Shown here: one piece after another, positions 5,856 through 28,114 of the stretch
Numbering within the stretch: the stretch's first letter is position 1
Layout: the number at the start of each line of letters is the position of its first letter
Assembly (NCBI GenBank): GCA_023412495.1
Contig: JAEYNP010000113.1
Span: 124,001 to 188,000, forward strand
Source of the DNA: Pseudomonadota bacterium
GTDB taxonomy: Bacteria > Desulfobacterota > Desulfobulbia > Desulfobulbales > Desulfocapsaceae
Length of the DNA: 64,000 bases
Direction of reading: 5' to 3'
Position numbers and translations under genes: made by a program
The notes under the pieces: generated by a model
Told to the model about the DNA's origin: nothing
Database searches by the model: none
The model's input: only the letters and a program-made list of their open reading frames with translations

Positions 5856-5892
5856 GCCGGTCTCCGCCTCATCCTGCAGTTGGTCGGGTAAG

Positions 5893-5970: not shown

Positions 5971-6658
5971 AATGACCTATCTTATATCCCAAACCTTCAA
6001 AAATATACATGAGACCAAACCCGTACCACAAGGTATAGATTACATAGAAGGCGAGGGAGGCGAGCACCAGGGCAATGTTCTCCTTCCAGTTCTCGATCTT
6101 CACGCCGTAGTAGTTATATGCGGGCTCCAATGCCTTTTTCGAGACATTGTCGAAAACCTTGGCTACGTCAAAATTATGCTGCTTGGCCAGTTCCTTACTG
6201 ATCTTGCCGAAGGAGTTCCACCAGTTCAACAGAGCCTGCCGCTCGTCGGAGCCGTATTTTTCGGCGACCGGCTGGCCATCGTTCTTGAACATCTTGTCGG
6301 CGTCGTCCAGAGCGGATTTCATGATGCCCGCCACATCGCCCTTGACTGTCAGCTCCACGCCGGAAACAGTCGCCTCGGCGCCCGCCGTGACGAATAATTT
6401 GGCCGTTTCGGCCGCCTCCTTGTCACTCTTCATCTTGATGGTGACGTTGATGATCTCTCCCTCCTTTTTGGCTGTCGCCTCCATCATCTGGGGGACGAAG
6501 TAGGAGGACCCCTTGGAGATCATGTTGAAGAGGTTGTCCATGTAATCCAGGCCGTTCTGCTTGCCGGGAAAGACCGGACTGAAGATGATCCCCAGCAAGG
6601 CAAAGAAGGAGATCAGCATGAAGATTCCACGTGTTTTGAGTTTGCTGTGCATGCTCAT
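5969..6658 (-). CDS. Two-TM membrane protein of the TauE operon, function unknown
   Basis: 229 residues with one TM helix at about 11-30 and another at about 200-222, separated by roughly 165 soluble residues that should be periplasmic. The soluble part is charged and helical (KMKSDKEAAETAKLFV, DDADKMFKNDGQ). It begins 1 nt after the stop of the TauE gene, whose last codons supply the GGAGG ribosome-binding site, so it is surely co-translated and probably partners the exporter. No family is recognised. Position and topology suggest an accessory or sensor subunit; this is inference. Confidence 0.85.
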   Translation of the reverse strand: MSMHSKLKTRGIFMLISFFALLGIIFSPVFPGKQNGLDYMDNLFNMISKGSSYFVPQMMEATAKKEGEIINVTIKMKSDKEAAETAKLFVTAGAEATVSGVELTVKGDVAGIMKSALDDADKMFKNDGQPVAEKYGSDERQALLNWWNSFGKISKELAKQHNFDVAKVFDNVSKKALEPAYNYYGVKIENWKENIALVLASLAFYVIYTLWYGFGLMYIFEGLGYKIGH

Positions 6659-6659
6659 A

Positions 6660-7976: not shown

Positions 7977-8030
7977 TTGTGCACCCCTTTAAAATGGTTT
8001 ATTTTGATGCTTCGCCTTGCCTGTCAGAGC

Positions 8031-8459
8031 TCAGCTCGGCATGGACATATGCTTCTTCATCTGGGCCGCTTCGATCTTTTCCTGATGGAGCCGCTTTTTC
8101 TCGTAGGCGTCGGCAAGCTTCTCCAGCAGGGGCTCGAGCTCGATGGGCTTCATCAGATAGTCGAAGGCGCCCAGTTTCATCCCTTCGATCCCCGAATCCA
8201 CCGAGGCATGGCCGGTCAGCAGGATGACCTCGACCAGCGGTTTCAGGTTGCGGATCCGCCGCAGGGTCTCGATGCCGTCCATATCCGGCATCTTGACATC
8301 CAGCAGCACGACATCCGTACGACTGTGCTCCAGGATCTCCAGAGCTTTCCTGCCACCTTCCGCGCCTTCCACATGCAGGCCTCTCTTGGCCAGCCGTTTC
8401 ATGATAACCTCGCGGAATTCATCCTCATCATCTACTACCAGAACGTTGAATTCTCTCAT
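8031..8459 (-). CDS. Receiver-only response regulator (CheY-like)
   Basis: 142 residues: REC domain with LVVDDEDEF, phospho-acceptor in VVLLDVKMPDMDG, VILLTGHAS and YLMKPIEL, then a short basic helical tail (YEKKRLHQEKIEAAQMKKH). No output domain. GAGGAG lies 7 nt before the ATG at 8459. It follows the histidine kinase by 53 nt and precedes the TauE gene by 54 nt, so it is the likely phospho-acceptor of that kinase. It resembles the receiver at 2906-3286 in and around the phosphorylation site, so the operon carries two parallel single-domain receivers. Confidence 0.93.
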   Translation of the reverse strand: MREFNVLVVDDEDEFREVIMKRLAKRGLHVEGAEGGRKALEILEHSRTDVVLLDVKMPDMDGIETLRRIRNLKPLVEVILLTGHASVDSGIEGMKLGAFDYLMKPIELEPLLEKLADAYEKKRLHQEKIEAAQMKKHMSMPS

Positions 8460-8512
8460 GGCATTACTCCTCTTGTTGGTTTTGACAAAAAATCGATCGG
8501 CGCTCAGTCCCT

Positions 8513-10174
8513 TCAGTTCATTCCCGGTTTGCTGTAATGCGTCACCGGCAGGACGACCCGGAAGAGCGCGCCTCCTTCCTTCCTGTTTTCCACGGATATC
8601 GAACCGCCCAGCTTCTTGACGATGTCGTAGCTGATATAGAGTCCCAACCCGGTCCCCTTGTCGGGGTCCTTGGTGGTGAAAAACGGCTCGAAGATCTGTT
8701 TGATATGCTCCGGCGAAATGCCGGGCCCGTTATCTGCACACTCGACCACCAGTTTGCCTTCGCTGTTTTTGCGCGTGGTGATCTCGATGACCCCTCTCGA
8801 GCCCACCGCATCGAGGGCATTGTTGATGAGGTTCAGGAAAACCTGCTGCAGCTGTGGCCCGTCGGTCATGGTGGCGGGGAGATTCTCCCCGAGATTTTTG
8901 ACGATGGTGATGCTGTTGTTCTCCGCTTCGCGCTCGATGAAGGACAAGGCCTCGTCGATGAGTTCGTTGATCTGCACCTGATCCTTCTGGGATGTTATCT
9001 TCCGCGAGAAGCCGAGCAGCCGGTGGGTGATGGTGCCGGCCCGCTTGACGTGGTAGCGGATCTTGTCCACCGAGTTTCGGTATTCGTCGATGTTCTTGAC
9101 GGCTGCTGGGTCCTCCTCGGGCAGCAGCTCGCTGATCCAGCCCGCCTGGTTGGTGATCATCTGCAGCGGGTTGTTGATCTCGTGGGCGATGCCCGCCGCC
9201 AGCCGGCCGATGGTCGCCATCTTTTCCACGTGGGCGAACTGCAGGCTGTGCGCGGCATGTTCCTTGTCCGCCTGTTCCAGGTGGCGGGCCAGGGCCAGAC
9301 TGACCGCCACCGCAGCGGACAGGGAGAGGACGAGAATGACCCCGACGATGAGGAGCAGCCGGTTGCGCAAGGACAGATAAAAGCCCATGGAGTCGGCGAG
9401 ATTGGCCTTCAGCACCAGGATCCACTGGCCGTCGCCGATCCAGCGTGTTTTGTAGATAAATGTATCGGTGACCACCGCCTGGGCCTTGTTGTCGACGGAA
9501 ATATGTTGCCGGTCGGTTTCGCTCAGTTCACCACTGCCAAGCAGGCTCGGCGTCTGGAGTTCTCCTGCCCGGTTGATGATGAAGGCGTCGCTATGGGGTC
9601 CCAGTTGAGCGGAATGAAGCAGCGAATTGAAGATGGACGAATTGATGGTCGCCCGCAGCACGAAGGTCCTCAGGGAATCGGTCACCGCCACCACAAAGTG
9701 CGGAATGTTGCGATAGCCGGTAAAGACGTCACTGACATGCACTCCGCGGATCAGAGTCTCCTTGAACCAGGGTGCATCGCCGTAGCTCTTGTCCTTCACC
9801 AGACTGCGGTAGGGACCGACGTAGCCGTGCTGGATGCCGCTGGAATCGATCACCTGCAGGTCGACTATATCCCCCTGCGGCCCCATGGCCAGATAAAGAT
9901 CGTCCAGGTTTTTTTGGTTAAGGAAGAAGTCATGGGGATAGAAGGAGACCATCATGCTGAGCAGGGAGATCTTGTCCTTCAGGAAAATTGAGATGACGTC
10001 GGTGCGGTGTTCGATAGTACTGGCGGCAAGCTCCTTCAGCTTTATGACATTGGTCTCCTCGACCGTCTCCTTCATGATCCAGGCGAAGCTGACGATAGGC
10101 ACGATGCTCAGGCAGAAGAAGGCTATCAGCAGCCGCCTGGTCAACGCCGAGTAGTATTTTTTCTGTCGTTCCAT
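8513..10174 (-). CDS. Sensor histidine kinase with periplasmic dCache-like domain
   Basis: 553 residues. TM1 at about 14-33, a periplasmic region of about 230 residues with a dCache look (PWFKETLIRGVHVSDVFTG, and DAFIINRAGEL), TM2 at about 273-296, then the kinase core: H-box GRLAAGIAHEINNPL with His near 331, N-box NLINNALDAVGS, G1 DNGPGIS, F-box FFTTKDPDKGTGLGL. There is no fused receiver. GAGGGGATA precedes the ATG at 10174. It lies 12 nt after the HTH gene and just before a receiver gene, so it is expected to phosphorylate the two receiver-only proteins of this operon. The periplasmic ligand is unknown. Confidence 0.95.
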   Translation of the reverse strand: MERQKKYYSALTRRLLIAFFCLSIVPIVSFAWIMKETVEETNVIKLKELAASTIEHRTDVISIFLKDKISLLSMMVSFYPHDFFLNQKNLDDLYLAMGPQGDIVDLQVIDSSGIQHGYVGPYRSLVKDKSYGDAPWFKETLIRGVHVSDVFTGYRNIPHFVVAVTDSLRTFVLRATINSSIFNSLLHSAQLGPHSDAFIINRAGELQTPSLLGSGELSETDRQHISVDNKAQAVVTDTFIYKTRWIGDGQWILVLKANLADSMGFYLSLRNRLLLIVGVILVLSLSAAVAVSLALARHLEQADKEHAAHSLQFAHVEKMATIGRLAAGIAHEINNPLQMITNQAGWISELLPEEDPAAVKNIDEYRNSVDKIRYHVKRAGTITHRLLGFSRKITSQKDQVQINELIDEALSFIEREAENNSITIVKNLGENLPATMTDGPQLQQVFLNLINNALDAVGSRGVIEITTRKNSEGKLVVECADNGPGISPEHIKQIFEPFFTTKDPDKGTGLGLYISYDIVKKLGGSISVENRKEGGALFRVVLPVTHYSKPGMN

Positions 10175-10186: not shown

Positions 10187-10801
10187 TCAACTTGTGAAAA
10201 ACGAGCGCAATTCGCTGGTCAGCCGGTCAAGCGGCAGGTTTTCGGCGAAGATCAGGTCGGCGGGAACGGTGAGCAGGCCGTTGTCGAGGGCCAGCTTCGT
10301 CGCCCGATCGACGAAGAGAACGGTCTTCACGTTAGACATGCCGGCCAGAAGATCGCAGGTGGCCGAAAGATCTTTGCTGAACGAGCGTTTGAAGACCACC
10401 ACCACATCCGGATCGAAGGTGAGGATGGTCAGGTGGGCCTGCCTTCCCAGGGTAGCGCTTTCCGCCATCACCAGATTCCGGTCATGAGCGAACAGCTTGC
10501 AGATATGATCGAAGGTTTCTTCCTTTTCGTGCAGCTCGTTGCTGTTCGTCGCCAGAAAGAGGATCCTGCCGGTTTTAGGCGGCAGCAGAGTGGAGGCGAC
10601 GGGCATGTTGTTGCGGAGCAGAAACCAGAGGACCTGGCCGATATCGACCAGACTGTCGTCAGCTGCGGCGGGCTTGAGGATCTTCATGGAGATTAAACCC
10701 TTGACCCTTTTCGGGGAAATCCGGCAGGCCTTGGCGATCTCCTCAACAGTGAGAAGCCGCTGCTGCTGCTGTCCGCTGTAATACAGTCCTCTGATCATCA
10801 T
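10187..10801 (-). CDS. HTH regulator with pseudo-receiver-like C-terminal domain
   Basis: 204 residues. Residues about 15-45 form a helix-turn-helix like those of MerR/excisionase proteins (LLTVEEIAKACRISPKRVKG, then LISMKILKPA). Residues about 65-200 alternate beta and alpha segments like a receiver (GRILFLATNSNELH, LTILTFDPDVVVVF, NVKTVLFVDRATKLA), but no phospho-acceptor Asp stands in the usual context, so I call it a pseudo-receiver. An AGGGAGA ribosome site precedes ATG-ATG at 10801. It is the first gene after the sigma-54-type promoter at 10845-10860 and is followed after 12 nt by the histidine kinase. It could be the DNA-binding output of this operon; no named family is claimed. Confidence 0.75.
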   Translation of the reverse strand: MMIRGLYYSGQQQQRLLTVEEIAKACRISPKRVKGLISMKILKPAAADDSLVDIGQVLWFLLRNNMPVASTLLPPKTGRILFLATNSNELHEKEETFDHICKLFAHDRNLVMAESATLGRQAHLTILTFDPDVVVVFKRSFSKDLSATCDLLAGMSNVKTVLFVDRATKLALDNGLLTVPADLIFAENLPLDRLTSELRSFFTS

Positions 10802-10844: not shown

Positions 10845-10860
10845 TGCAACCGCCATGCCA
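10845..10860 (-). promoter_or_regulatory. Sigma-54-type (-24/-12) promoter of the HTH-headed operon
   Basis: Minus-strand TGGCATGGCGGTTGCA has GG and GC elements exactly 10 nt apart, as RpoN promoters require, and agrees with TGGCAC-N5-TTGCA except for C to T. The predicted start would be near 10833, about 30 nt before the ATG at 10801. Fifteen bases (TGGCATGGCGGTTGC) are identical to the element upstream of the Ehr-like operon at 19774-19790. Confidence 0.75.
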
Positions 10861-10954
10861 CCCATTGTTTGATAAAATATAATTATTTTCAAAAACTTAT
10901 CCGACAAATACAGAAAACGGGACAAGGCCTCCCATGAGGTGAAAAAGGAGTATT

Positions 10955-11080
10955 TGTTAAGGAATGGTGACAAGAACCCTTTCCTCCCTTTAATCAAGGG
11001 AAATTACTCGAAAATAGTTTGTTAACTGGGGGTGACAGTGGAGAAACGGGAAGATGAGGCAATGTATAGCCGCGGTAACA
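10955..11080 (-). promoter_or_regulatory. Three 18-bp activator-type sites upstream of the HTH-headed operon
   Basis: On the minus strand: TGTTACCGCGGCTATACA (11063-11080), TGTCACCCCCAGTTAACA (11020-11037) and TGTCACCATTCCTTAACA (10955-10972). All begin TGTYACC and end ACA, an imperfect dyad of TGT-N12-ACA form. Starts are 43 and 65 bp apart, and the nearest site is 95 bp upstream of the -24 element. Number, order and spacing repeat upstream of the Ehr-like operon. They are probably bound by an activator of the sigma-54 promoter; the NtrC-family protein at 21282-22658 is the natural candidate. The remainder of 10802-11158 shows nothing else recognisable. Confidence 0.7.
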
Positions 11081-11158
11081 GACAGTGGAGGTTTTGCAGG
11101 ACATCCCGAAGGGCAGCCACCTGGATCCAGCACATGGAGGAGGGGCCGTCCATCGAAT

Positions 11159-11902
11159 TCAACGGAAATAGTCGAGCAGGGCCTGCAGGGTGGTGAGGGG
11201 ATGCGGCGGGCAGCCGGGGATATAGAGATCGACGGGGAGTATGCTGTTGAGGTCGCCGACGATCTCCTCGCTGCCGTAGAATGGCCCGCCGGAGATGGAA
11301 CAGGCGCCGCTGGCGATTACTACCTTCGGGGCCGGGACAGCATTCCAGGTGGCGAAAAGCGCCGCCCGCATGTTGCGGGTAATCGGGCCGGTGACATGGA
11401 TGCCGTCGGCATGCCGGGGCGAGGCGACGAAATCGATGCCGAACCGGGAAAAGTCGAAAAAAGGGGTGTTCAGAACATTGGTATCCGACTCGCAGCCGTT
11501 GCAGCCGCCGGCCGAGACCTGGCGCAGTTGCAGCGACCGGCCGAAGATTCTGTGGAAGTGTTTCCTGGCGTGGTCGGCGAGAGCGGGCAACGTGCCGCCG
11601 CATATCAATGCTTCACGGCTGGCCGCCCCCAGCCTGTAATCCTGGCTGAAGGTGACGAAGGCTCCGCCGGCCACCGTCTCGCAACGCCCGCAGAAGATAC
11701 ACCGGCCAAGATCGATGGTCCTGTCATGCTCTGAGACCGCCTCCTGGGGACAGACCGCAGCGCAACGCCGGACAATGTCCGGATCGCAGGTCCTGTTGAT
11801 CTTGGGCAACCCCCGGTACGGTGGCCGGAGCTCGATGCTCTCCCTGGGGTAATTCGTTGTCCGGCAGCCCTGTTCGAGCCTGTTTCTGATGATCTTCAGC
11901 AT
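11159..11902 (-). CDS. Ehr-like complex small subunit: ferredoxin-like N-terminus fused to HyfI/HycG/NuoB-like domain
   Basis: 247 residues. Residues 80-247 match group 4 hydrogenase small subunits/NuoB, with all four cysteines of the proximal cluster: two in SAGGCNGCES, one in SGACSISGG and one in PGCPPHP. Residues 35-80 are ferredoxin-like but reduced: CAAVCP plus CIFCGRC can complete one 4Fe4S cluster, while the second cluster is incomplete (TC-x7-C only). This corresponds to HyfH and HyfI in one chain. The ATG at 11902 follows GGGAG-type sequence; the HyfG-like gene ends 63 nt upstream. It is the last gene of the operon, and no terminator is evident before the next promoter region. It probably carries electrons from a soluble donor to the membrane arm. 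Confidence 0.88.
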   Translation of the reverse strand: MLKIIRNRLEQGCRTTNYPRESIELRPPYRGLPKINRTCDPDIVRRCAAVCPQEAVSEHDRTIDLGRCIFCGRCETVAGGAFVTFSQDYRLGAASREALICGGTLPALADHARKHFHRIFGRSLQLRQVSAGGCNGCESDTNVLNTPFFDFSRFGIDFVASPRHADGIHVTGPITRNMRAALFATWNAVPAPKVVIASGACSISGGPFYGSEEIVGDLNSILPVDLYIPGCPPHPLTTLQALLDYFR

Positions 11903-11965
11903 ATGTCCTGCTCCCGGCGCAAGCCGGCGGATGTTGGGAATTGCATCGACGTAATCGATCTCATG

Positions 11966-13477
11966 TCACAGGTCGAAGCCGCAATAGGAAAGGTTGAAGC
12001 TCTTGTTACACAGCGGGAAATCGGAGATCTCCTGATTCCGGAGGGCCATAGCCAGCCCGGTCCAGTTATGAAAGGAGGGATCCTTGATCTTGTACCTCTC
12101 GATTTTACCGCTTTCATCTGTCAGCACGCAGTGCGACACCTCCCCGCGCCAGGCTTCGCCCACGGTCACCACGAGGGCGTCCGGCATGAGTGCGGGCGCA
12201 TCCGGCAGCGTATCCCCCTCCCCTGCCTCCTTCAGCATGTTGAGAAAGGTCCGGATCAGGCCCAGGGAGTGGAAGATCTCGCTCTTGCGGATCATCGCCC
12301 GGCTGTGGACATCGCCGCTCACCGAGTCGTTGCGGTTGACGTACATCCCGGCAAAAGCCTCGGTGGGGAAAACCACCCGCGCGTCGTAATCGAGCCCGGA
12401 GGCGCGGCCGCAGCAGCCCACCAGACCGAGGTCCTTGGCCATCGCCCGGGAGACCCTGCCGGTGCCCTCGAAACGGGCCTGGACGGTGTGGGCGGAAAAA
12501 AGCAGATCGGCGACATGGGCGAGCTCCAGCGTCAACTCCTTCAATTTTTCCTCGATCATTTTCGCCTGATCGAGTGCAACCCTTTGGGAGACGCCCCCCG
12601 GCCGCACCAGGCTCTTGCCGAAGCGGTTGCCGGAAAGAGCGAGCAGGAGGTTCAAAAACTCGCCCCGCATCCGGCCGAAAAAAGCAGCAGGCGGATTGAA
12701 GGCGACATCGCCTGAGAGGGCCCCCAGGTCGCCGACATGGTTGGCGAGCCGCTCCAGTTCCAGCGCAATCGAGCGGATGATCCTGTCACCGAAATCGACC
12801 CGGATGCCGGCCAGGGCCTCCACAGCCTCGCAGCAGCAGAGGCCGTGGCCGATGGCGGTGTCCCCGGCTATGGACTCGCAGATCACCGGCAACCGCTTTG
12901 CGGCCACCTTCGTCAGCAGTTTCTCCACGCCTCGGTGCTGGTAGCCGAGCTGGATCTCCAGGGACAGGACCTCTTCGCCTGCGCACTGGAAACGGAAATG
13001 GCCGGGTTCGATGATGCCGGCATGGACCGGCCCCACCGCCACCTCGTGGATGGCCGTCCCCTCGATCCGGAAGTAGGGGTAATTACCCGGGATATCAAGA
13101 GAATAGTCGTTGCCGAAGACATCCGGCACACCCCGGCAGTTGGCGTGGTAGCGGACCATCTTCAGCCAGGGGTGGCCCAGCGGCACGATCCCGTACTGCT
13201 CGGCGATCTCCCGCTCGAACATGTGGAATTTCGGGTTGTCGGCGGTGAGCGAGGGGAAGGCATCCCCCACTTCGGTGGCGATGACATGGAGATCCTGGTT
13301 GCGGACCACCGCCAGCAGCCGGTTGGTCCCTCCTTCGGCAAAAGCAAAGAACTGGACGACGTAGCCGTCGCCTGCGGCGAAATCCAGGAGCAGCCTGCGG
13401 AAGCGGTCCATTGGCAGGCAGGGGATGTCGCTTCGTTTGACGGCCTCGCCGTTTCTTATCTGCAGCAGCTCAGCCAT
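11966..13477 (-). CDS. Ehr-like complex large subunit (HyfG/HycE/NuoCD-like) without Ni-Fe ligands
   Basis: 503 residues: a NuoC-like N-terminal part (AEQYGIVPLGHP, and YSLDIPGNYPYF) then a NuoD/HycE-like large subunit (HFRFQCAGEEVLSLEIQLGY, QHRGVEKLL). At the L1 position, where hydrogenases have RxCGxCxxxH, it reads SIAGDTAIGH: both cysteines are gone, Gly and His remain. Near the C-terminus the L2 DPCxxC is replaced by NLSYCG. With no Ni ligands it cannot be a hydrogenase. This matches the energy-converting-hydrogenase-related (Ehr) type. It overlaps the HyfF-like gene by 8 nt. It may couple an unknown redox reaction to ion pumping; substrate unknown. Confidence 0.88.
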   Translation of the reverse strand: MAELLQIRNGEAVKRSDIPCLPMDRFRRLLLDFAAGDGYVVQFFAFAEGGTNRLLAVVRNQDLHVIATEVGDAFPSLTADNPKFHMFEREIAEQYGIVPLGHPWLKMVRYHANCRGVPDVFGNDYSLDIPGNYPYFRIEGTAIHEVAVGPVHAGIIEPGHFRFQCAGEEVLSLEIQLGYQHRGVEKLLTKVAAKRLPVICESIAGDTAIGHGLCCCEAVEALAGIRVDFGDRIIRSIALELERLANHVGDLGALSGDVAFNPPAAFFGRMRGEFLNLLLALSGNRFGKSLVRPGGVSQRVALDQAKMIEEKLKELTLELAHVADLLFSAHTVQARFEGTGRVSRAMAKDLGLVGCCGRASGLDYDARVVFPTEAFAGMYVNRNDSVSGDVHSRAMIRKSEIFHSLGLIRTFLNMLKEAGEGDTLPDAPALMPDALVVTVGEAWRGEVSHCVLTDESGKIERYKIKDPSFHNWTGLAMALRNQEISDFPLCNKSFNLSYCGFDL

Positions 13478-14897
13478 GGATCACCCCGCCCAGGACTTCA
13501 ATGGTAGCGTCGATTGTATCGTGCATCGCCTCCGGCATCCAGATTGAGAGGAGCACCGAGGTGAGGAGCAGCACGTAAGGAGGCACGATGCGCAGAACAC
13601 CGAAGTCGATCCGGACCGGCCCGCTCCGGCCGGCAAAGGACATGCCGGTGAAGATCGGCGCGGCCCCGGCCACCACCAGCACGAGACAGCCGATGAACGA
13701 AAGCCCCGCAAGCCAGCGACCGGTATCGAAAGCGCCGATCAGGATGAACAGCTCGCTGATGAAGAGACCGAAGGGCGGCAGCCCGGCGAGCCCCACGAAG
13801 CCCGCGAAGAAGGAGAGAAATGTTCCCGGCAGAAAGCCCGCCAGTGCCCCCACCCGCTCGACCGCCTTGGTCTGGTAGCCTGCGAGGATATTGCCCGCCG
13901 ACAGAAACAGTGACGACTTGAGGAGTGAATGGTGGATCATGTGCAGTATGGCGCCGTAGAGGGCCAGCCCGCCGATCCCTACCCCGAAGACGATGACGCC
14001 CATGTTCTCGATGCTGGAGTAGGCGAGTAGCCGCTTGTAATCCTGCTGCCTGACGATGAAGATCCCGGCAACCAGCATCGACAGGAGGCCGAAACCGATG
14101 AGGATCGCACCGGAGAAATCATCGAGTCCCGCGAGATACATCAGGGTGTGGACCTTGTAAACCCCGAGCAGGGCGCAGTTGAGCAGGGCCCCGGACAGCA
14201 GGGCCGATACAGGGCTCGGCGCCTCGCTATGGGCATCGGGCAACCAGGTATGCATGGGGGCGAGACCCATCTTGGTGCCGAAACCGATGATCACGAAGAT
14301 GAAGCCGATCTTCAGCCAGAGGGGGTCGAGCCTGTCTGCGACACCGTTCAGGGAACTGAAGGTGAGATCGGTGATGATCTCGGCGCTGTCGAGGGACAGA
14401 GTGATGAAAAAGCAGCCGAGGAGGGCCAGCGCGATGCCCACCGAGCAGATCAGCACATACTTCCAGGTGGCCTCGAGGGCCTCGCGGGAACGGCTGACGA
14501 AAATAAGGGGCGCGCTGACCAGCGTCGTCGCCTCGATGGCGATCCACAGGACGATCGGGTGATCGGCCAGGGCTACCATGCTCATGGTGCCGAGAAAGAG
14601 CAGCAGGCAGCCCAGGCAGACCTGCTGGTTCACGCCCTTGGCTTCGTTCAGGTAAGAGGCGGCATACCAGGAGTTGCACAGGAAGACGAAGGAAGTGACG
14701 AGCAGCACCAGCATGCCGATGGGCGCAAGGGCGAAGGCTCCCGCCGCAAGCACCGGCATCGGCCCCAGGCAGGCGACGACTGAGATGACAAAATGGCCGA
14801 GGCCGGTAGCGATCAGAAGGTTCCGACCGATGGCGGCCGGCAGGAAGAAGGCAGCAGACCCGGTCAACAGCGGCAGGAGAAACAGGAATTCCAGCAT
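13470..14897 (-). CDS. Ehr-like complex membrane subunit, HyfF/NuoM-N-like antiporter
   Basis: 475 residues with about 14 predicted TM helices. Characteristic Mrp/NuoN-type stretches are present: GFGTKMGLAPMHTWLPDAHS with the conserved Lys, SEAPSPVSALLSGALLN, YSSIENMGVIVFGVGIG, and LHMIHHSLLKSSLFLSAGNI with the conserved broken-helix Lys/His. This is one of the two antiporter-like proton/sodium channels of the complex. The ATG at 14897 has GAGGGAT upstream and lies 1 nt after the HyfE-like stop; the 3' end overlaps the large-subunit gene. Which ion is moved cannot be read from the sequence. Confidence 0.9.
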   Translation of the reverse strand: MLEFLFLLPLLTGSAAFFLPAAIGRNLLIATGLGHFVISVVACLGPMPVLAAGAFALAPIGMLVLLVTSFVFLCNSWYAASYLNEAKGVNQQVCLGCLLLFLGTMSMVALADHPIVLWIAIEATTLVSAPLIFVSRSREALEATWKYVLICSVGIALALLGCFFITLSLDSAEIITDLTFSSLNGVADRLDPLWLKIGFIFVIIGFGTKMGLAPMHTWLPDAHSEAPSPVSALLSGALLNCALLGVYKVHTLMYLAGLDDFSGAILIGFGLLSMLVAGIFIVRQQDYKRLLAYSSIENMGVIVFGVGIGGLALYGAILHMIHHSLLKSSLFLSAGNILAGYQTKAVERVGALAGFLPGTFLSFFAGFVGLAGLPPFGLFISELFILIGAFDTGRWLAGLSFIGCLVLVVAGAAPIFTGMSFAGRSGPVRIDFGVLRIVPPYVLLLTSVLLSIWMPEAMHDTIDATIEVLGGVIHG

Positions 14898-14898
14898 A

Positions 14899-15558
14899 TC
14901 AATCCCTCAATCGTTTCAGAAGATCGGTGTCGATGTCGTCGAAGGCGTGATTGATGTTGTGCAGGATAATGCCCATGATCATCACCCCCGCCAGCAGGTC
15001 GAGCAGGACGCCGAATTCGATGATATGGGCGGTGCGCGAATGGTTGGTGAGCGCCGTGCCCATAAGATAGATGCCATTTTCCAGCATGAGGTAGCCGATC
15101 ACCTGGGTAATTGCCTTCCTTCTGGCCATCATCAGGAAAAATCCGCCGGACATGGTGGCGACGGCGGCGGTCAGCACCAGCTCTTTGCCGCCGCTCGTGG
15201 CCTGGAATTGTTCTTTGATCACCACGGCCAGCACCATGATGAGAAGGCCGAAGAAGAGCGAGGCGTGATAGCCGATGATCGGCTCCACCTCCCGCTTGAT
15301 CGAGACCCGCCGCAAGGCCAGCCACAAGAGGGCCGGAATGAGGATGCCCTTGATCACCACCATGACCTGGACGAAGAGGAGATCGCCGCCATCGAATCTG
15401 CCGTCGAAGTGCAGGAAAAAGGGGCTGAGCGAAACAAGGATCCCCTGGCAGGCCATGATCTTCACCAGGGCCCCGAGCCGGCTCGAAGCCAGCGACAGGA
15501 GGACAGAAAGGAGCACCAGCACCATGCACATGTCGCTGATGTGTATCATGTAGATCAT
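14899..15558 (-). CDS. Ehr-like complex membrane subunit, HyfE-like
   Basis: 219 residues with about six to seven TM helices, matching hydrogenase-4 component E (HyfE, related to NuoK/MrpC). Typical stretches are QVIGYLMLENGIYLMGTALT and IIEFGVLLDLLAGVMIMGI, with the conserved Glu residues inside TM helices. The ATG at 15558 overlaps the HyfC-like stop as ATGA, showing translational coupling. It probably forms part of the proton path between the HyfC-like and antiporter-like subunits. Confidence 0.9.
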   Translation of the reverse strand: MIYMIHISDMCMVLVLLSVLLSLASSRLGALVKIMACQGILVSLSPFFLHFDGRFDGGDLLFVQVMVVIKGILIPALLWLALRRVSIKREVEPIIGYHASLFFGLLIMVLAVVIKEQFQATSGGKELVLTAAVATMSGGFFLMMARRKAITQVIGYLMLENGIYLMGTALTNHSRTAHIIEFGVLLDLLAGVMIMGIILHNINHAFDDIDTDLLKRLRD

Positions 15559-16469
15559 TCGACGAAACCTATGGTGAGAATGACGGCGAAGAGGACAAGG
15601 GTGCCGGAGGTGAGGATGAATTTCGGAACCAGGTTCATCTTCAGGCGCGCAGTCACCGACTCCACCACGCCGATAGCCGCATAGACGAGCGCGAGCACGC
15701 CGTAGAAGAGCGGGACCCCTGCCGGCCCAAGGCTGCCGAAAGGACAGATGATGAGAGCGAGAAACGAGCTGTAGAACAGCAGCCGGTACATGGAGGCGAG
15801 CTCGATCAGGGCCAGGTCGGGGCCGCTGTGGTCGAGGATCATCACCTCATGGATCATAGTCAGCTCCAGGTGGGTGGCCGGATCGTCCACCGGCACCCGG
15901 CTGTTCTCGGTGAGCAGGATCATGAAGAGGGCGACAAGCACCAAGAGAAGCAGCGCGCCGCCAGCCCCGGCGAGGTGGATCGGCACCTCCCCCGTGAAAT
16001 ACCCGGCAAAGCTCAGAGCCCCGGTCATCCGGTAGAAGAGGATGACAATCACCAACAGAGAAACCTCGGCAAGCGTCCCGAACAAGGCCTCACGGGCCGC
16101 CCCCATGCCCTGAAAGGGCGAGGCCGTGTCGAGGGCCGCAAGGATGGTGAAGAAGCGCATCACCCCCATGACGTAGAGCAGGAGAATGACATCACCGTGA
16201 AAGGACAGCAGGGGCTCCCGTCCCGCCAGGGGAAAAAAGAGCAGGAGCAATACCGCCCCGGCTATCGAGACTACCGGGCCGAGCCGAAATACCGGGCCCG
16301 CGCTTTCGCTGTAGACCGAGCCCTTGCGGAGGAGCTTTTGCAGGGTGAGGTATTTGATCATGAGCGGCGGCCCCTTTTTTCCGGCGAAGAAAGCCTTCAC
16401 CTTCAGGAGGATCCCGGGGTACAAGGGCGCCAAGAGGAGCGCAAGAACTGTCGACATTATTGATTCCAT
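15555..16469 (-). CDS. Ehr-like complex membrane subunit, HyfC/HycD/NuoH-like
   Basis: 304 residues with about eight TM helices, matching HycD/HyfC. Seen: GILLKVKAFFAGKKGPPLMI near the N-terminus, DTASPFQGMGAAREALFGTL, and VPVDDPATHLELTMIHEVMI with the acidic residues of the NuoH-type interface loop. This subunit anchors the hydrophilic arm and links it to the pumps. GGAGGAAAGAGG precedes ATG-GAA at 16469. A MITE-like element of about 145 bp separates it from the HyfB-like gene, the only large gap in the upper operon. Confidence 0.9.
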   Translation of the reverse strand: MESIMSTVLALLLAPLYPGILLKVKAFFAGKKGPPLMIKYLTLQKLLRKGSVYSESAGPVFRLGPVVSIAGAVLLLLFFPLAGREPLLSFHGDVILLLYVMGVMRFFTILAALDTASPFQGMGAAREALFGTLAEVSLLVIVILFYRMTGALSFAGYFTGEVPIHLAGAGGALLLLVLVALFMILLTENSRVPVDDPATHLELTMIHEVMILDHSGPDLALIELASMYRLLFYSSFLALIICPFGSLGPAGVPLFYGVLALVYAAIGVVESVTARLKMNLVPKFILTSGTLVLFAVILTIGFVE

Positions 16470-16485
16470 TCCTCTTTCCTCCCGC

Positions 16486-16630
16486 TAGGAGCCTGGCGGA
16501 TTATAGCTATTTTTTCTCAGATCGAGGCATTTTCGAAAATTAAGCGCAGTCATGTACGTAACATTACGAGCATTAATTTTCGAAAATAACGAAGAGATGG
16601 GGAAATAGGGCATAATCCGACGGACTCCTA
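16486..16630. mobile_element. Probable MITE (non-coding inverted-repeat element) between the HyfB- and HyfC-like genes
   Basis: The ends are an imperfect inverted repeat: left TAGGAGCCTGGCGGATTAT then AGCTATTT, right (reverse complement) TAGGAGTCCGTCGGATTAT then GCCCTATTT. Inside lies a perfect 15-bp pair, ATTTTCGAAAATTAA (about 16530-16545) against TTAATTTTCGAAAAT (about 16573-16587). TA at both ends fits a TA target duplication, as with IS630/mariner-type elements. There is no transposase and no credible ORF. The right terminal TAG is the stop codon of the HyfB-like gene. The transcript would fold into one long hairpin inside the operon. Confidence 0.7.
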
Positions 16631-18601
16631 AAGGGTTTCCCACCAGAAGAGAACAGCCAGCAGCACCAGGATCGCCACGATGATATAGCCGATATAGAGC
16701 TGGATGTTGCCGTGCTGGATCCAGCGCAGTTTCGCCAGCAGGGCGAGACCCGGCCGGGTGACCCCCCGTTCGAGGATGACCTCGGTCAGATCGTCGACCC
16801 GGCTGTCGTAGGCCGTCCAGCCGGGAAAGATCGCGGTGAGCCGCACCTCGGTCTCCCGCACCGCGACCAGGGGCCGGAAAAAATTGACGATGCTCCGGGC
16901 AAAGGAGGCGCCGGTGTACTGGATGCGGGCGGTGGGCCGAGTGAAACCGCAGCCCCAGGTGGGGCCTCGGACGACTTCCTTGCCCCGGTAGAGAGCCGCG
17001 CGCAGCAGGAAGAACACCAGGAAAAGGCCGAGGAGCAGCCGCGCTCCCAGGGCGAGGTTCGATCCGATGCTTCGGAGCTGCTGCCAGTCGATTAGCGAAA
17101 GATCGAGGCAGTCCGCCAGGGCGAAGACGGAAAAGTGGATGAAACCTTCCGGGAAAAGGCCGATGACCAGGCAAAGCGCCGTCAGGAAAACCATAGGCAG
17201 GGTAAAGCCGAGGCCGCCTTCGCCCGCTCTTGCCGCCTGCTCGGTGCGGGGTTCGCCGAGAAAGACGATGCCCACCACCTTGGTGAAGCAGAAGGAGGCC
17301 AGGCCGCCGATGGCGGCCAGCGCGCAGATGGCGAGAATCGCCGGTAGAAGCGTCCCCGTCCCGTGGTTCAGACCCTGAAAGGCCGCAAAATAGATGAGGA
17401 ATTCGCTGACGAAGCCGTTGAAGGGCGGCAGACCGGCAATGGAAAGCGAACCGACCAGGAATGTCCCACCGGTGACCGGCATCTTCTTCATCAGGCCGCC
17501 GAGATCGTCCACATGGCTTGCACCGGTTTTCTTGACCACGACGCCCGCCCCGAAAAACAGCAGGCTCTTGAAAATCGAGTGGTTGAGCACATGGAGGAGG
17601 GAGCCGGCGAAGCCGAAGACCGCCATGGTGGTGTCGGCTACGCCCAGCCCCATCATGCCCAGTCCCGCGCCGATCAGGATGATGCCGATATTTTCCACGC
17701 TGTGATAGGCGAGCAACCGCTTGAGGTCATGCTTGCCGAGCGCGTACACCACGCCCATGACGCCCGAGACCATGCCGCAGACCAGCACCATCCGGCCCAG
17801 CATAGGGTCGCTGTCGCCGAGCAGGAAGAACATCCTGAGGATGCCGTAGATCCCCATCTTGATCATGACCCCAGACATTAGCGCCGAGATATGACTGGGT
17901 GCGGCAGGATGAGCATGGGGCAGCCAGATGTGCCCGGGCATGACCCCCGCCTTGACGCCGAAACCGAGAAAGGCGAGCAGGAAGACCGCCGATTTGCTGG
18001 ACAGCGGCAGGGAGTTGGCACCCTCGAAGGAAAAGCTGCCGGTATGGCTGTAGATGATGGCAAAGGCGGCGAAGACGAGCAGGGCCCCGGCTTGGGAAAA
18101 GAGAAAATAGAGATAGCCGGCAAGCCTCGATTCCTGCTTCTCGTAGTCGTACAGGACGAGGACGAAAGAGGAAATCGACATCATTTCCCAGGCTATGGCA
18201 AAGCTCAGCATGTTGCCGGCGGCCACCACCATTGCCATGGAGGCGACCAGGAAGGCCGTGAAAAACACATTGATCGCCGAACGCCACGACTTGGCGCCGT
18301 CCGCAAAGTACTGGCAGCCGTACATGGTGGCCAGCGGAGTGATCAGGAAGATCGGCACCAGAAAGAAGATGCTCAGCCTGTCGAGGGAGAAATCGAGGAC
18401 AAAAATCCTCAGCCAGGTCCAGGACCAGGACAAGCTCTCCGGCTCTTCGGCGGCCGTGAAGATGGTTAAGAACGCCGCCAGGGAAGCGCAGGCCACTATC
18501 CCGGCCGAGACGTATTTAGACAGGGCGAAGCGGCGCCAGCTCAGGAGCGACAAGGCTCCCCCGGCCAGGATAAGGGCCAGGGAGAGGAGGAAGGTATTCA
18601 T
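16628..18601 (-). CDS. Ehr-like complex membrane subunit, HyfB/NuoL-like
   Basis: 657 residues with about 16 TM helices, resembling hydrogenase-4 component B. Seen: SFAIAWEMMSISSFVLVLYD, GFGVKAGVMPGHIWLPHAHP with the conserved Lys, SHISALMSGVMIKMGIYG, YHSVENIGIILIGAGLG and LNHSIFKSLLFFGAG. A soluble C-terminal segment (KEVVRGPTWGCGFTRPTAR) and a last TM helix follow, as usual in HyfB. The ATG at 18601 overlaps the stop of the unknown first gene (ATGA). The stop codon TAG (16630-16628) coincides with the end of the MITE-like element, so the original C-terminus may have differed slightly. Confidence 0.92.
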   Translation of the reverse strand: MNTFLLSLALILAGGALSLLSWRRFALSKYVSAGIVACASLAAFLTIFTAAEEPESLSWSWTWLRIFVLDFSLDRLSIFFLVPIFLITPLATMYGCQYFADGAKSWRSAINVFFTAFLVASMAMVVAAGNMLSFAIAWEMMSISSFVLVLYDYEKQESRLAGYLYFLFSQAGALLVFAAFAIIYSHTGSFSFEGANSLPLSSKSAVFLLAFLGFGVKAGVMPGHIWLPHAHPAAPSHISALMSGVMIKMGIYGILRMFFLLGDSDPMLGRMVLVCGMVSGVMGVVYALGKHDLKRLLAYHSVENIGIILIGAGLGMMGLGVADTTMAVFGFAGSLLHVLNHSIFKSLLFFGAGVVVKKTGASHVDDLGGLMKKMPVTGGTFLVGSLSIAGLPPFNGFVSEFLIYFAAFQGLNHGTGTLLPAILAICALAAIGGLASFCFTKVVGIVFLGEPRTEQAARAGEGGLGFTLPMVFLTALCLVIGLFPEGFIHFSVFALADCLDLSLIDWQQLRSIGSNLALGARLLLGLFLVFFLLRAALYRGKEVVRGPTWGCGFTRPTARIQYTGASFARSIVNFFRPLVAVRETEVRLTAIFPGWTAYDSRVDDLTEVILERGVTRPGLALLAKLRWIQHGNIQLYIGYIIVAILVLLAVLFWWETL

Positions 18602-19680
18602 AAACGTTCGTATTCGGTATATTCGGCCCCCGAGCCCATCCTGTTGAAGTTCATCAAGGCGACGAACAGATCGTCCTGCAGCAGCGGATAGATGTTGCCG
18701 TAACAGTAACCGTGCCGTTTCCAGCAGGCCTGCCAGGGCACGAAGTAGCGTTCCTTCCTGCCGCGGAAGCCTCTCATGTCGATCTCGAGCCCGGAAACAC
18801 AGATGAGGTTGCGCAGATCATCGGGTCCCGTGGCGGCAAAGGTGTCGCAAATCCCGGAGAAACCGGCCTGAAGGTGGACGAGGGTGGCCGCGAGTTCGGG
18901 GTTTTTTTGGGTGACGATCCGGGGCATCAGTTCCGCAACCGCCGGGAAGGGGGGCGGATCATCCTGTGGTGATTTGCCGGCAAAGAAAAATAGCTCCGGC
19001 CCAAAGTATTCGCCGATCGGGCTAAAGACACCCGGCTGCCAGGAAAACTCCCGCTCATCCAGGATTTGCCTGAATCCGGCCGACAGGGGGAGGGTGACCA
19101 GCGACCCAGCGGAAGCGCGATCCCGCTGCAATGTTTTGCCGGCTTCGGCAATCCTATCGACATGCACTTGCAAGCCGACCCCGGCCGGATTGCCCTTGCC
19201 GGAAACCAGGCCCTCCGGAATGGTCACCACCGGTTTTCCGGTACTGTCGCAGCCCAGGCGGATATGCTCCTGGGCGAACCGGTATTGCCGGACATAAGGG
19301 GCAATGAATTCGGCGGGAGTTGCCGGGGCCACCTTCCCGAAGTCTTCCCGGGACCGTTGACCGGGCAGTCCGGTGTAGGCCCCCCAGTTCTGTTCATAGG
19401 GGATCATGGCGGAAAAAATGACGATATGGTCCTGTTCTCCCCACATGGCATCCGAGGAGGAACGGTATCCCAGGGTCAGCCTTTCGGCCAGATTGGCTGC
19501 CGTCTCGCAGGGTCTCGTCACGATAGGGTTATGAAAGCCGAGGGAGGAACAGAGTGTTCGCAGACGCGGGAGAAATTCATACGCGGGGATCAATCGACCG
19601 CGGACCTTGCAGCTCGGGATTTGCGGTAAGGGGTCTGAGGTTGTCAATTTTTCCTCCATATAAGAGATGAGATGTCGCAT
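18598..19680 (-). CDS. Unknown protein heading the Ehr-like operon
   Basis: Up to 360 residues, no signal peptide or TM helix, no family recognised. ATG at 19680 and 19659 have poor ribosome sites. A TTG at 19647 has GGAGG five bases upstream, so the protein may start at LTTSDPLPQIP and be 349 residues. Visible stretches: CETAANLAERLTLGYRSSSD, GCDSTGKPVVTIPEGLVSGK, and a C-terminal part rich in aromatic residues and cysteine (WQACWKRHGYCYGNIYPLL). It is translationally coupled to the HyfB-like gene (ATGA) and is the first gene after the sigma-54-type promoter, so it should belong to the complex, perhaps as a soluble partner or assembly factor. This role is inference only. Confidence 0.8.
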   Translation of the reverse strand: MRHLISYMEEKLTTSDPLPQIPSCKVRGRLIPAYEFLPRLRTLCSSLGFHNPIVTRPCETAANLAERLTLGYRSSSDAMWGEQDHIVIFSAMIPYEQNWGAYTGLPGQRSREDFGKVAPATPAEFIAPYVRQYRFAQEHIRLGCDSTGKPVVTIPEGLVSGKGNPAGVGLQVHVDRIAEAGKTLQRDRASAGSLVTLPLSAGFRQILDEREFSWQPGVFSPIGEYFGPELFFFAGKSPQDDPPPFPAVAELMPRIVTQKNPELAATLVHLQAGFSGICDTFAATGPDDLRNLICVSGLEIDMRGFRGRKERYFVPWQACWKRHGYCYGNIYPLLQDDLFVALMNFNRMGSGAEYTEYERL

Positions 19681-19773
19681 TTCTCATTTTGATGAGAGAA
19701 ACCGATTGTTGACGCACTACTCCCGATGTTGCGAGGGTCGCTGGAAAGCGGCACGCCTTTTGCGAATCAGGGC

Positions 19774-19790
19774 TAGCAACCGCCATGCCA
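19774..19790 (-). promoter_or_regulatory. Sigma-54-type (-24/-12) promoter of the Ehr-like operon
   Basis: Minus-strand TGGCATGGCGGTTGCTA, with GG and GC 10 nt apart, is the same 15-nt core as at 10845-10860. The predicted start near 19763 gives a leader of about 80-115 nt, depending on which start codon of the first gene is used. Three upstream sites at 19886-20010 keep the same distance from it as at the other locus. Confidence 0.75.
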
Positions 19791-19885
19791 TCCTCCTTAC
19801 CCCGGCAAGATTCAACTATGAACAATGATAATGAAAAGTTACCTCCAAACCCCTAAGGAACGCCGGTGCCCTTACCCCCTGTTTT

Positions 19886-20010
19886 CGTGAAGCTACGGTG
19901 ACAAAATCGGAATCATCCATATAATTATTTGAAATAATGACACAAATAATGTTTACTGAGGGTGACAGTCATATCACGGGACGGAAAGCGAGTGTATAGC
20001 CGAAGTAACA
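19886..20010 (-). promoter_or_regulatory. Three 18-bp activator-type sites upstream of the Ehr-like operon
   Basis: Minus-strand sites: TGTTACTTCGGCTATACA (19993-20010), TGTCACCCTCAGTAAACA (19950-19967) and TGTCACCGTAGCTTCACG (19886-19903, with the terminal ACA changed to ACG). Starts are 43 and 64 bp apart, and the nearest site is 96 bp from the -24 element, matching 43/65/95 at 10955-11080. The outer site is only 16 bp from the start codon of the divergent kinase gene, so the same regulator could repress its own kinase/regulator operon. The 19826-20026 gap holds nothing else evident apart from an AT-rich stretch at 19917-19950. Confidence 0.7.
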
Positions 20011-20026: not shown

Positions 20027-21262
20027 ATGGATGACGAAAAGAATGAAGAAAAATCGGGTGAAAGCTTGCTGATCGATATCCTGGAGAGACAGAAGAAAGA
20101 CCTGGTCATCAGGTTCCTGAAGAAGCACGAGGAGGCCGAGGCCAACAGATCGTTCATCGACAAGATCATGTCCAACCTCTCCGACCTGATCATCGTTCTG
20201 TCCGCCGATCTGCACATTGTTCAGGCCAGCAGGGAATTCTACCGGGTGCTGGAACTCGAGGACATGGAGCCGGGGCTCGCCCTCAAGGACATCACCGGCC
20301 GAGAGAGTCTGCAGCTGCTCACCGAGCGGCTCTCGGGCGGGGAATTCCACGATCTCGAGACGACCCTCATCAGCCGGGCCGGCAAGCCCGTGCCGGTCAT
20401 TATCCGCGGCACCACCTATGTGACGGAATCAGGGCGTATTCTCCATATGCTGGTAGCCTCCGACCGCCGCGATTTCTACGAGGTCATGGGGCGGATGCGG
20501 GAGGTGCAGGATCAGCTCATTCACTCCGGGCGCCTGGCGAGCCTGGGCGAAATGGCCGCCGGCATCGGCCACGAGCTGACCCAGCCGCTCAACACCGTGC
20601 TGCTTCTCGCCCGCAACTGCGTGAAGGCCATGGACAACCCGGTGGAGAACGCAGCGATGATCAAGGAGAACCTGGTGACGATCATCGAGCGGGTGAACCA
20701 CTCGTCCTCCATCATCAGGAGCCTGAAGGGGTTTGCCAGCAAGGCCAGGGAAGAAGTCGTGCCGGTGCGGATCAACGTCATCATTCTCGATGTCCTGAGT
20801 TTCCTGGACGCCCAGCTGCTGCTCTCGGATATCGCCGTCGACCTGGAACTGGCTGAGAAGGATTACTGGGTGATGGGCCACGAGGTGCGGATCGAACAGG
20901 TCCTGCTCAACCTGATCCAAAACGCCATTCAGGCCATGGCCGAGACCAGGAAGCCGGTCCTCAAAATCACCACCTTCCGCCACGCCGGTGTCGATTCGGA
21001 GAGCCTGCAGCCCAAGGCCTATGTGGGCATCTCGGTCACCGACAACGGCGAGGGGATCGATCCTGCCATCCAGGCCAAGATCTTCGATCCCTTCTTCACC
21101 ACAAGGGAGGTCGGCGCCGGGATGGGCTTGGGGCTGTCGATCGTCGAGCGCATCGTCAGGGGATTCAGCGGACAGATCAAGGTGGACAGCACGCCCGGCA
21201 GCGGGACAACCTTCACCGTCTATCTGCCTGAACATGAAAAAGAGAACGGCTCGCCGGAATGA
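20027..21262 (+). CDS. Soluble PAS-domain sensor histidine kinase
   Basis: 411 residues without TM helices, so it senses in the cytoplasm. A charged helical N-terminus (1-45) leads to a PAS domain (about 46-150, SNLSDLIIVLSADLHIVQAS), then HisKA with the DctB-like H-box GEMAAGIGHELTQPLNTVLL, N-box NLIQNAIQAMAE, G1 DNGEGIDP and GAGMGLGLSIVERI. It is followed after 19 nt by an NtrC-family regulator and is almost surely its kinase. It is divergent from the Ehr-like operon, with the shared regulatory sites in between. GGACGG precedes the ATG. The PAS ligand may be a redox or metabolite signal; this is inference. Confidence 0.95.
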   Translation: MDDEKNEEKSGESLLIDILERQKKDLVIRFLKKHEEAEANRSFIDKIMSNLSDLIIVLSADLHIVQASREFYRVLELEDMEPGLALKDITGRESLQLLTERLSGGEFHDLETTLISRAGKPVPVIIRGTTYVTESGRILHMLVASDRRDFYEVMGRMREVQDQLIHSGRLASLGEMAAGIGHELTQPLNTVLLLARNCVKAMDNPVENAAMIKENLVTIIERVNHSSSIIRSLKGFASKAREEVVPVRINVIILDVLSFLDAQLLLSDIAVDLELAEKDYWVMGHEVRIEQVLLNLIQNAIQAMAETRKPVLKITTFRHAGVDSESLQPKAYVGISVTDNGEGIDPAIQAKIFDPFFTTREVGAGMGLGLSIVERIVRGFSGQIKVDSTPGSGTTFTVYLPEHEKENGSPE

Positions 21263-21281: not shown

Positions 21282-22658
21282 ATGGAAAAGAAAAGCACCA
21301 TTCTGGTAGTGGATGACGATCAATATCTGCTGTCGGCCATCGGCCAGACCCTGATGCTGAACGGGTTCCGGGCGGACCTTCAGGCCAGCCCGCTCGCCGC
21401 CCTGGAGCTGGTGAAAAGCAATTCCTATATGGCGGTCATCGCCGACATTCGGATGCCGGTGATGGACGGCATGCAGCTGCTCGGGGAAATCGGCAAGATC
21501 GACCGCGACCTGCCAATCATCATGATCACCGGCCATGGCGACGTGGCGCTCGCGGTGCAGGCCATCCGGACCGGCGCCTACGATTTCCTGGAGAAACCGG
21601 TGGACGAAGAGGTGCTGCTCGCCTCGCTGCAACGGGCGGTGGAAAAGCGGCGGCTGGTCATGGAAAACCGGCAGCTCCAGGAGGATCTCGCCCGCCAGAG
21701 CCGCCAGTCCTTTTTCCGCGGCATGGTCGGCTGTCACCCGCTGATGCATCGTCTCTACGATGTGGTGGAGATGGCGGCCAGGGCGGCTGATCCGGTGCTG
21801 CTGTCCGGCGAGACCGGCACCGGCAAGGAACTGGTGGCCCGGGCCATTCATCAAATCGCCAGGCCTAGGGGTACCTTCGTCGGTGTCAACATGGCGGCGC
21901 TCCCGGCGGAGATGATCGAATCGGAACTCTTCGGCCACGAGCGGGGGGCCTTTACCGGGGCCGTCGCCACCAAGATCGGCAAGTTCGAGTATGCCAAGGA
22001 CGGGACACTCTTTCTCGATGAAATCTGCAGCCTGCCCAACACCCTCCAGGCAAAACTCCTCCGCGTCCTCGAGGAACGCAGCTTCTGCCGCCTGGGCAGC
22101 AATACCCAGCTCCCCCTGCAGGCGAGGATCATCTCGGCGACCAACAAGGATCTCCATGAGGAGATCGCCGGCGGGCGATTCCGCCAGGATCTCTTCTACC
22201 GGCTGAACGTCCTGTCCATCGACATCCCGTCGCTCAGGAAGCGCAAGGAGGATATCCCGCTTCTGGTCGAATATTTTCGCCAGGAATATTGCCGCGAACG
22301 GCAGCAGACCGTGCCGCCCTTCACCGCCCAGCAGATGGAGAAGATCACATCCCAGGATTGGCCGGGCAACATCCGCGAGCTGCGCAACTACGTGCGGCGG
22401 GCCTGCGTCTTCGGCGAACCGCCCGAAGAGCAGGCGAAGGATGCCGCCGCCCTCTCTCCCGAGCCGGGCGGAAAGGGGTTGCAATCGCTCAGGGATTACA
22501 TGGAGTTGCACGAAAAGGAATACATCATCCGCGTCCTGTCCCAGCATGGGGGCAAGGTGGGAGCATCCCACCAGGTGCTTGGCCTTTCCCGCAAGGGGCT
22601 GTACGACAAGATCAACAAGTACTCGATCGATCTCGCTGCTTGTAAGAAGGAGGAGTGA
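21282..22658 (+). CDS. NtrC-family sigma-54-dependent response regulator
   Basis: 458 residues. The start at 21282 follows AGGGAAGG. REC domain (1-120) with LVVDDDQYL, phospho-acceptor in VIADIRMPVMDG, ITGHGDV and EKPVDEE; AAA+ domain with Walker A SGETGTGKELVARAIH, the sigma-54 contact loop ERGAFTGA, Walker B GTLFLDEICSLP and arginine-finger region GGRFRQDLFYRLNV; C-terminal Fis-type HTH (GGKVGASHQVLGLSRKGLYD). All parts needed to activate sigma-54 promoters are present. Given its place beside the six conserved 18-bp sites and two -24/-12 promoters, it is the best candidate activator of both the Ehr-like and the HTH/TauE operons. Confidence 0.95.
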   Translation: MEKKSTILVVDDDQYLLSAIGQTLMLNGFRADLQASPLAALELVKSNSYMAVIADIRMPVMDGMQLLGEIGKIDRDLPIIMITGHGDVALAVQAIRTGAYDFLEKPVDEEVLLASLQRAVEKRRLVMENRQLQEDLARQSRQSFFRGMVGCHPLMHRLYDVVEMAARAADPVLLSGETGTGKELVARAIHQIARPRGTFVGVNMAALPAEMIESELFGHERGAFTGAVATKIGKFEYAKDGTLFLDEICSLPNTLQAKLLRVLEERSFCRLGSNTQLPLQARIISATNKDLHEEIAGGRFRQDLFYRLNVLSIDIPSLRKRKEDIPLLVEYFRQEYCRERQQTVPPFTAQQMEKITSQDWPGNIRELRNYVRRACVFGEPPEEQAKDAAALSPEPGGKGLQSLRDYMELHEKEYIIRVLSQHGGKVGASHQVLGLSRKGLYDKINKYSIDLAACKKEE

Positions 22659-28112: not shown

Positions 28113-28114
28113 GA

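Follow-up and report, generated by a model that had tools for sequence, protein, structure and literature searches.

The stretch of DNA analysed here, which we call the window, comprises 64,000 nucleotides (64 kb) of a member of the Desulfocapsaceae in the order Desulfobulbales (assembly GCA_023412495.1, contig JAEYNP010000113.1, positions 124,001 to 188,000). Named homologs of its proteins place the window in the Desulfobulbales. It carries two consecutive minus-strand operons. The first (19680 to 11159) encodes a protein termed u360 and six subunits of an energy-converting hydrogenase-related (Ehr) complex, and the second (10801 to 3252) begins with a helix-turn-helix (HTH) protein and continues with genes for the histidine kinase HK2, the receiver RR2, a TauE permease, a 229-aa protein and PPDK. 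Divergent from the Ehr operon lies a two-component pair, the histidine kinase HK1 and the response regulator RR1. Upstream of each of the two operons stands the element that concerns us, an array of three 18-bp sites (A, B and C) followed by a -24/-12 element, with all sites and elements on the minus strand (Table 1).

Table 1. Arrays, promoters and genes at the locus, in window coordinates.
Feature	Position	Strand	Sequence or description
Site A, HTH-operon array	11063..11080	-	TGTTACCGCGGCTATACA
Site B, HTH-operon array	11020..11037	-	TGTCACCCCCAGTTAACA
Site C, HTH-operon array	10955..10972	-	TGTCACCATTCCTTAACA
Sigma-54 (-24/-12) element, HTH operon	10846..10860	-	TGGCATGGCGGTTGC
Site A, Ehr/kinase-side array	19993..20010	-	TGTTACTTCGGCTATACA
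Site B, Ehr/kinase-side array	19950..19967	-	TGTCACCCTCAGTAAACA
Site C, Ehr/kinase-side array	19886..19903	-	TGTCACCGTAGCTTCACG
Sigma-54 (-24/-12) element, Ehr operon	19776..19790	-	TGGCATGGCGGTTGC
Sigma-70-like promoter toward HK1	19898..19925	+	GTGACA-16-TATAAT, 11/12 match
HK1	20027..21262	+	HisKA/HATPase histidine kinase, weak PAS match
RR1	21282..22658	+	NtrC-family response regulator: receiver, GAFTGA AAA+ domain, HTH_8; proposed array binder
HTH protein, first gene of HTH operon	10187..10801	-	204 aa; weak HTH_17-like N-terminus and receiver-like predicted fold
Remainder of HTH operon	3252..10174	-	HK2, single-domain receiver RR2, TauE/SafE permease, 229-aa protein, PPDK_N/PEP-utilizer
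u360, first gene of Ehr operon	18598..19680	-	No sequence family; LCIB-like predicted fold
Six Ehr genes	11159..18601	-	Complex-I / group-4-hydrogenase-like; large subunit without CxxC motifs

A preliminary description had reported that these two loci share a -24/-12 promoter and three sites in the same order and spacing, and this proved accurate: the start-to-start distances from A to B, from B to C and from C to the promoter element are 43, 65 and 112 bp at the HTH promoter and 43, 64 and 113 bp at the Ehr promoter. Exact matches to TGTYAC-N9-ACA number five in the window, all of them within the two arrays (mean of 0.24 and largest count of 2 in 100 shuffles); the sixth site, at 19886, ends in ACG, as had been described. 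The sequence TGGCAYRNNNNTTGC occurs twice, each time at the promoter of an array (shuffles: mean 0.10, largest 1), and a matrix built from the six sites scored those sites at 18.8-21.4 and never exceeded 10 in the rest of the window. Of the 54 bases in the sites, 45 are identical in the two arrays. Their spacers, once aligned, matched no better than shuffled sequence, either from B to C (26 matches versus a mean of 22.4 and a maximum of 29) or from C to the promoter (46 versus a mean of 44.0 and a maximum of 55), and in the A-B spacer 12 of 25 bases are identical, bearing out the earlier statement that the surroundings of the sites are not conserved. The further conclusion that the arrays are not a recent duplication holds as far as recency goes, but an old duplication is likely, since the likeness between arrays runs position by position, A to A, B to B and C to C, both in the window and in its relatives. 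The two arrays are most simply read as copies of one ancestral array.

Maintained regulation, which the preliminary description had also proposed, gained support from the recurrence of the triplet and its spacing upstream of orthologous operons. Among 257 genomes of the Desulfobulbales, 52 encode an HK1 ortholog (E<=1e-60), and 51 regions upstream of HK1 could be scanned, one locus (L189) having no upstream sequence and two regions being shorter than 480 bp (354 and 427 bp). With the matrix from the window alone, a scan that the preliminary description had suggested, two same-strand sites at the array spacing were found in 33 of the 51 regions (100 shuffled sets averaged 0.06 such regions, and none gave more than 1) and in 29 of 47 when the four closest genomes were left out. 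Matches of at least 11 bits pointed toward the target 73 times and away from it 6 times. A refined matrix applied to target-pointing sites only also gave 33 of 51, of which 31 were common to both matrices (union 35). In eight of the 16 HK1 genomes outside this union (G056, G045, G044, G041, G057, G046, G040 and G058), the array stands away from HK1, at the target gene cluster, and so it follows its target. In most neighbourhoods examined that target is a single operon, (HTH)-HK2-RR2-TauE-229aa-PPDK, usually divergent from HK1-RR1, and this gene order is repeated in many relatives.

The 61 regions of the refined set were the 51 lying upstream of HK1, both arrays of the window, the arrays on the HTH side in G142 and G143, and a further six on the target side that were chosen for having sites (G056, G045, G044, G041, G047 and G048). 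It yielded 136 sites with the consensus TGTCACC-N5-T-N2-ACA. The left half-site, TGTYACC, is stronger than the right and most sites share one orientation; in their fullest form the sites are inverted repeats (TGTTACCTCCAGGTAACA at L133, for example), near-perfect at L133, L145 and L148. Distances between neighbouring sites (n=84) fell at 38-43 bp in 38 cases and at 64-71 bp in another 38, with 8 at other values, and helical phasing is kept for A-B (38-43 bp). Of the 61 regions, 26 had a recognisable -24/-12 element past their last site, 21 of them at a distance of 112-135 bp, and TGGCATGACGGTTGC follows the arrays in G142 and G143. The array is also present in a cultured relative, Desulfogranum marinum DSM 2058 (G003, locus L180).

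Stricter patterns led back to the same locus. Across the 257 genomes, the A-B pair pattern matched 9 times and the B-C pair pattern 11 times, always at the array locus, with no match to the reversed-pattern controls; site C combined with the sigma-54 element matched 13 times, 11 of them at the array locus and 2 elsewhere (G007 and G177), and its control gave none. HK1 was found at the same threshold in 7 of 395 genomes sampled over the phylum, all seven being Desulfobulbales already in the order set. We rejected the array as a general operator of Ehr, as no array was present at the at least 80 Ehr large-subunit loci sampled, many of them on short contigs; six of these had one exact TGTYAC-N9-ACA match each. 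Neither an HTH homolog nor a close relative of HK1 or RR1 stood beside Ehr in this sample, where the best matches to RR1 were 34-40% identical.

NtrC-family activators bind tandem sites as phosphorylated dimers, form an AAA+ oligomer and remodel sigma-54 polymerase at the -24/-12 element. The window has the parts of such a unit: a GG...GC element (TGGCATGGCGGTTGC, twice), dyad operator sites upstream of the promoter, and a linked regulator, RR1, with a receiver, a sigma-54-activating AAA+ domain bearing GAFTGA and a Fis-type HTH. Among the 19 RR1 sequences compared, the receiver Asp is present in all and GAFTGA in 18 (GTFTGA at L202). RR1 is the best candidate for the protein that binds the array. 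We consider it highly probable that RR1 uses each triplet as an upstream activating sequence, through which it drives the sigma-54 promoter of the HTH operon and, in the lineage of the window, that of the Ehr operon. The arrays, their spacing, conservation and locus specificity, their association with HK1-RR1 and a series of gene arrangements can all be read from the sequences, and the proposed mechanism builds on them. HK1 would phosphorylate RR1, dimers of RR1 on sites A, B and C would assemble into an active AAA+ oligomer, and this oligomer would reach the -24/-12 element by looping, there opening sigma-54 polymerase at both operons. Because the array and its sigma-54 element exist twice in the window lineage with the Ehr operon (u360 and six Ehr genes) between the copies, Ehr would have joined the RR1 regulon. 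Repression of HK1-RR1 by bound RR1 is also probable: 16 bp separate site A from the start codon of the kinase gene, and site C in the window covers the -35 hexamer of the sigma-70-like kinase promoter.

Several observations weigh against RR1 as the general user of these arrays, or against parts of the mechanism. Eight of the 51 HK1 genomes had no array of canonical spacing beside HK1 with either matrix, nor one at those of their target clusters that were covered; in four of these the sites are differently spaced or oriented (G168, G169, G053 and G049), two have a single site (G137 and G238) and two have none (G105 and G183). Conversely, G047, G048, G054 and G139 carry sites, and neither HK1 nor RR1 was found in them, which draft incompleteness could explain. 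Because the strict A-B, B-C and C-plus-sigma-54 patterns are insensitive, matching only 8, 11 and 12 of the 257 genomes, degenerate targets of the array are possible elsewhere in the genomes. The distance from B to C, 64-65 bp in the window, reaches 71 bp elsewhere, so that strict helical phasing of C is not kept, and G144 has deviating spacings (33 and 66) with nearly symmetric sites. IHF-like sites between C and the promoter occurred in 9 of 22 cases, above the shuffle mean of 4.5 but within the shuffled range (maximum 10). Finally, a sigma-70-like promoter over site C was not enriched across the order (6 of 33 C sites, with 4.2 expected; 2 of 33 for A and 8 of 33 for B), and we rejected this overlap as an order-wide feature. 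A looser rule gave 7 versus 2.1 expected and a maximum of 8; comparable promoters over site C do occur in some close relatives, and in the window one was found where shuffles gave 0.7.

The recognition helix and the paralogous HTH operons speak to who binds the array. In an alignment of the 19 RR1 sequences with 12 other regulators, the helix region reads SRKxxY(D/E)K in all 19, DRKTxYR(K/R) in the regulators that adjoin other Ehr operons (readable in five, truncated in one) and (S/T)RPTLHAK in four regulators beside paralogous HTH operons; the two further regulators aligned are unrelated. Six paralogous HTH operons away from RR1 (L082, L083 and L087-L090; 34-44% identity, one 25%) have no site of at least 11 bits in their 480-bp upstream regions (best 10.2), and five of them keep the -24/-12 element. 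These operons lie near other NtrC-family regulators or have none in sight nearby. Four of the six genomes (G005, G133, G146 and G184) lack an RR1 ortholog, their best relative being 43-44% identical or below threshold, and the other two (G001 and G150) have RR1 with the array at a different locus.

This specificity of the recognition helix to RR1, the order-wide linkage between the array and HK1-RR1, and the lack of sites at HTH operons in the four genomes without an RR1 ortholog make it improbable that the sites belong to another enhancer-binding protein to which RR1 is merely a neighbour. That explanation would accommodate the four genomes with sites and no detected HK1 or RR1, and TGT/ACA motifs of similar form do serve enhancer-binding proteins with no close similarity among their DNA-binding domains (PMC4641369). 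We regard as equally improbable that the HTH protein itself binds the array and autoregulates, with another regulator serving the sigma-54 element. The HTH protein heads the operon, as such an autoregulator would; its paralogs, however, have operons without sites (0 of 6), G144 keeps the sites and HK1-RR1 with no HTH homolog detected, and three sites upstream of a -24/-12 element form an enhancer geometry.

At L113, L118, L119 and L120 we observed paralogous HTH operons with a sigma-54 element near a third type of regulator, with the helix (S/T)RPTLHAK. Because these operons keep the sigma-54 element but adjoin this other regulator, a change of regulator seems to have gone together with a change of operator there. 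Separately, a kinase and an NtrC-family regulator of their own, transcribed in the same direction, accompany the Ehr operons at L003, L006, L026, L215 and L216; these regulators have the helix DRKTxYR(K/R) and a loop reading GAFTDA, GSFTDA or GAFTNA.

How Ehr came under the proposed control of RR1 can be followed through a series of gene arrangements. A single array is present in G001 and G147, where HK1 and the HTH operon diverge directly from each other; the Ehr operons of these genomes lie elsewhere, by other regulators. In the window, two arrays flank a whole Ehr operon. G143 has two arrays with u360 alone between them, and a piece of Ehr cut off by a contig end on a separate contig. In G142 (L115, 12641-13070) two arrays about 430-500 bp apart enclose EhrL-like (20 aa) and EhrB-like (43 and 18 aa) fragments, the remains of a decayed Ehr operon; an intact Ehr operon lies at another place in that genome, and the kinase-side array has a site C one base short and has lost its -24/-12 element. 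Because the window's HTH-side and kinase-side arrays are closer to their counterparts in G143 (65% and 68%, respectively) than to each other (52%), the duplication of the array is older than the split between the window and G143. This age, together with spacers that have decayed to chance level where the sites have not and with the conservation of single arrays across the order, makes it most improbable that the likeness of the two window promoters is a functionless leftover of segmental duplication, although the position-by-position likeness of A, B and C does suggest common descent.

The series suggests that array duplication, Ehr insertion and Ehr loss took place, in an order that is tentative, and the Ehr genes may have come with u360 or separately. 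One tentative scenario is that copying of the whole enhancer-promoter cassette recruited the Ehr operon to a sigma-54 regulon that already existed, leading from a one-array ancestor such as G001 and G147 represent to two arrays around Ehr as in the window, with u360 left or present in G143 and fragments in G142. Going by its predicted fold, u360 could be a carbonic-anhydrase-like (LCIB-type) protein that partners the complex-I-like subunits of Ehr; in that case the unit captured may form an energy-coupled CO2/bicarbonate module controlled by a two-component switch.

Ehr complexes have complex-I-like subunits and a large subunit without the Ni-binding CxxC pairs. CxxC is absent from 23 of 24 aligned large subunits, including that of the window, and P0067 has one CLCC. 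To our knowledge, no function has been established for Ehr complexes. A sequence search of solved structures with an alignment of u360 gave no trustworthy match. The model of the HTH protein (pLDDT 88) has receiver-like structural matches with E from 2.5e-4, from which no specific function follows, and this protein may be a non-canonical response regulator. In HK1, Pfam detected no sensory family beyond the weak PAS match. Past a universal stress protein gene, the minus strand of the window also carries an RND efflux operon (23806-29605; AcrB-type permease, adaptor and outer-membrane channel), unrelated to the arrays as far as seen.

For an uncharacterised two-component system of the Desulfobulbales, the array supplies a strict, testable geometry along with an operator and a target operon, both predicted, and a regulator of Ehr is a clue to when Ehr complexes are made. 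A search of open-licence literature by title or abstract start found no description of this operator or operon in Desulfobulbales. The preliminary description knew of no described operator of this form, which does not stand: for E. coli QseF (GlrR), with IHF, three TGTN12ACA sites upstream of the glmY sigma-54 promoter are described (PMC6075780), and the QseF consensus is also given as TGTCN10GACA, with three putative QseF sites at glmY of P. mirabilis (PMC8745638). The likeness extends to three 18-bp TGTN12ACA sites before a sigma-54 promoter, five of the window's six fitting exactly, and to a sigma-54-dependent response regulator. RR1, however, scores 340 bits on the NCBIfam GlrR model, whose cut-off is 763, and is by that cut-off not a GlrR ortholog; its predicted targets are the HTH/TauE/PPDK operon and Ehr rather than a small RNA, and the Desulfobulbales sites differ from those of QseF in their stronger left half and mostly uniform orientation. 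As to a linkage with glmY and qseG, the annotated neighbours in the window belong to other families, no Rfam search having been made.

In D. vulgaris, which belongs to a different order, three groups of enhancer-binding-protein motifs consist of TGT and ACA half sites separated by 9, 11 or 12 bp; several regulator genes diverge from the sigma-54 promoter, and most regulons comprise one to four operons (PMC4641369). Half sites, divergent regulator genes and small regulons are alike. The PrsR/PEP-CTERM system likewise pairs an NtrC-like regulator with a predicted motif ending in TTTACA upstream of a sigma-54 element, but that motif is 17 nt long and repeated only sometimes (PMC1569441). RR1 reaches 377.7 bits on the PEP_resp_reg model, below its cut-off of 502.6, and none of the 20 window proteins scanned matched a PEP-CTERM family. 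The CrtJ/PpsR operator, reported as TGTN12ACA, has the same half sites and spacing as the array sites. CrtJ/PpsR is a photosystem repressor of purple bacteria and is not known to be a sigma-54 system. The operator form is thus already known, and the array in Desulfobulbales is a further case with an unusually clear evolutionary series, the relatives showing a series of states by which an energy-conserving complex can come under an existing enhancer, a process that is usually just inferred.

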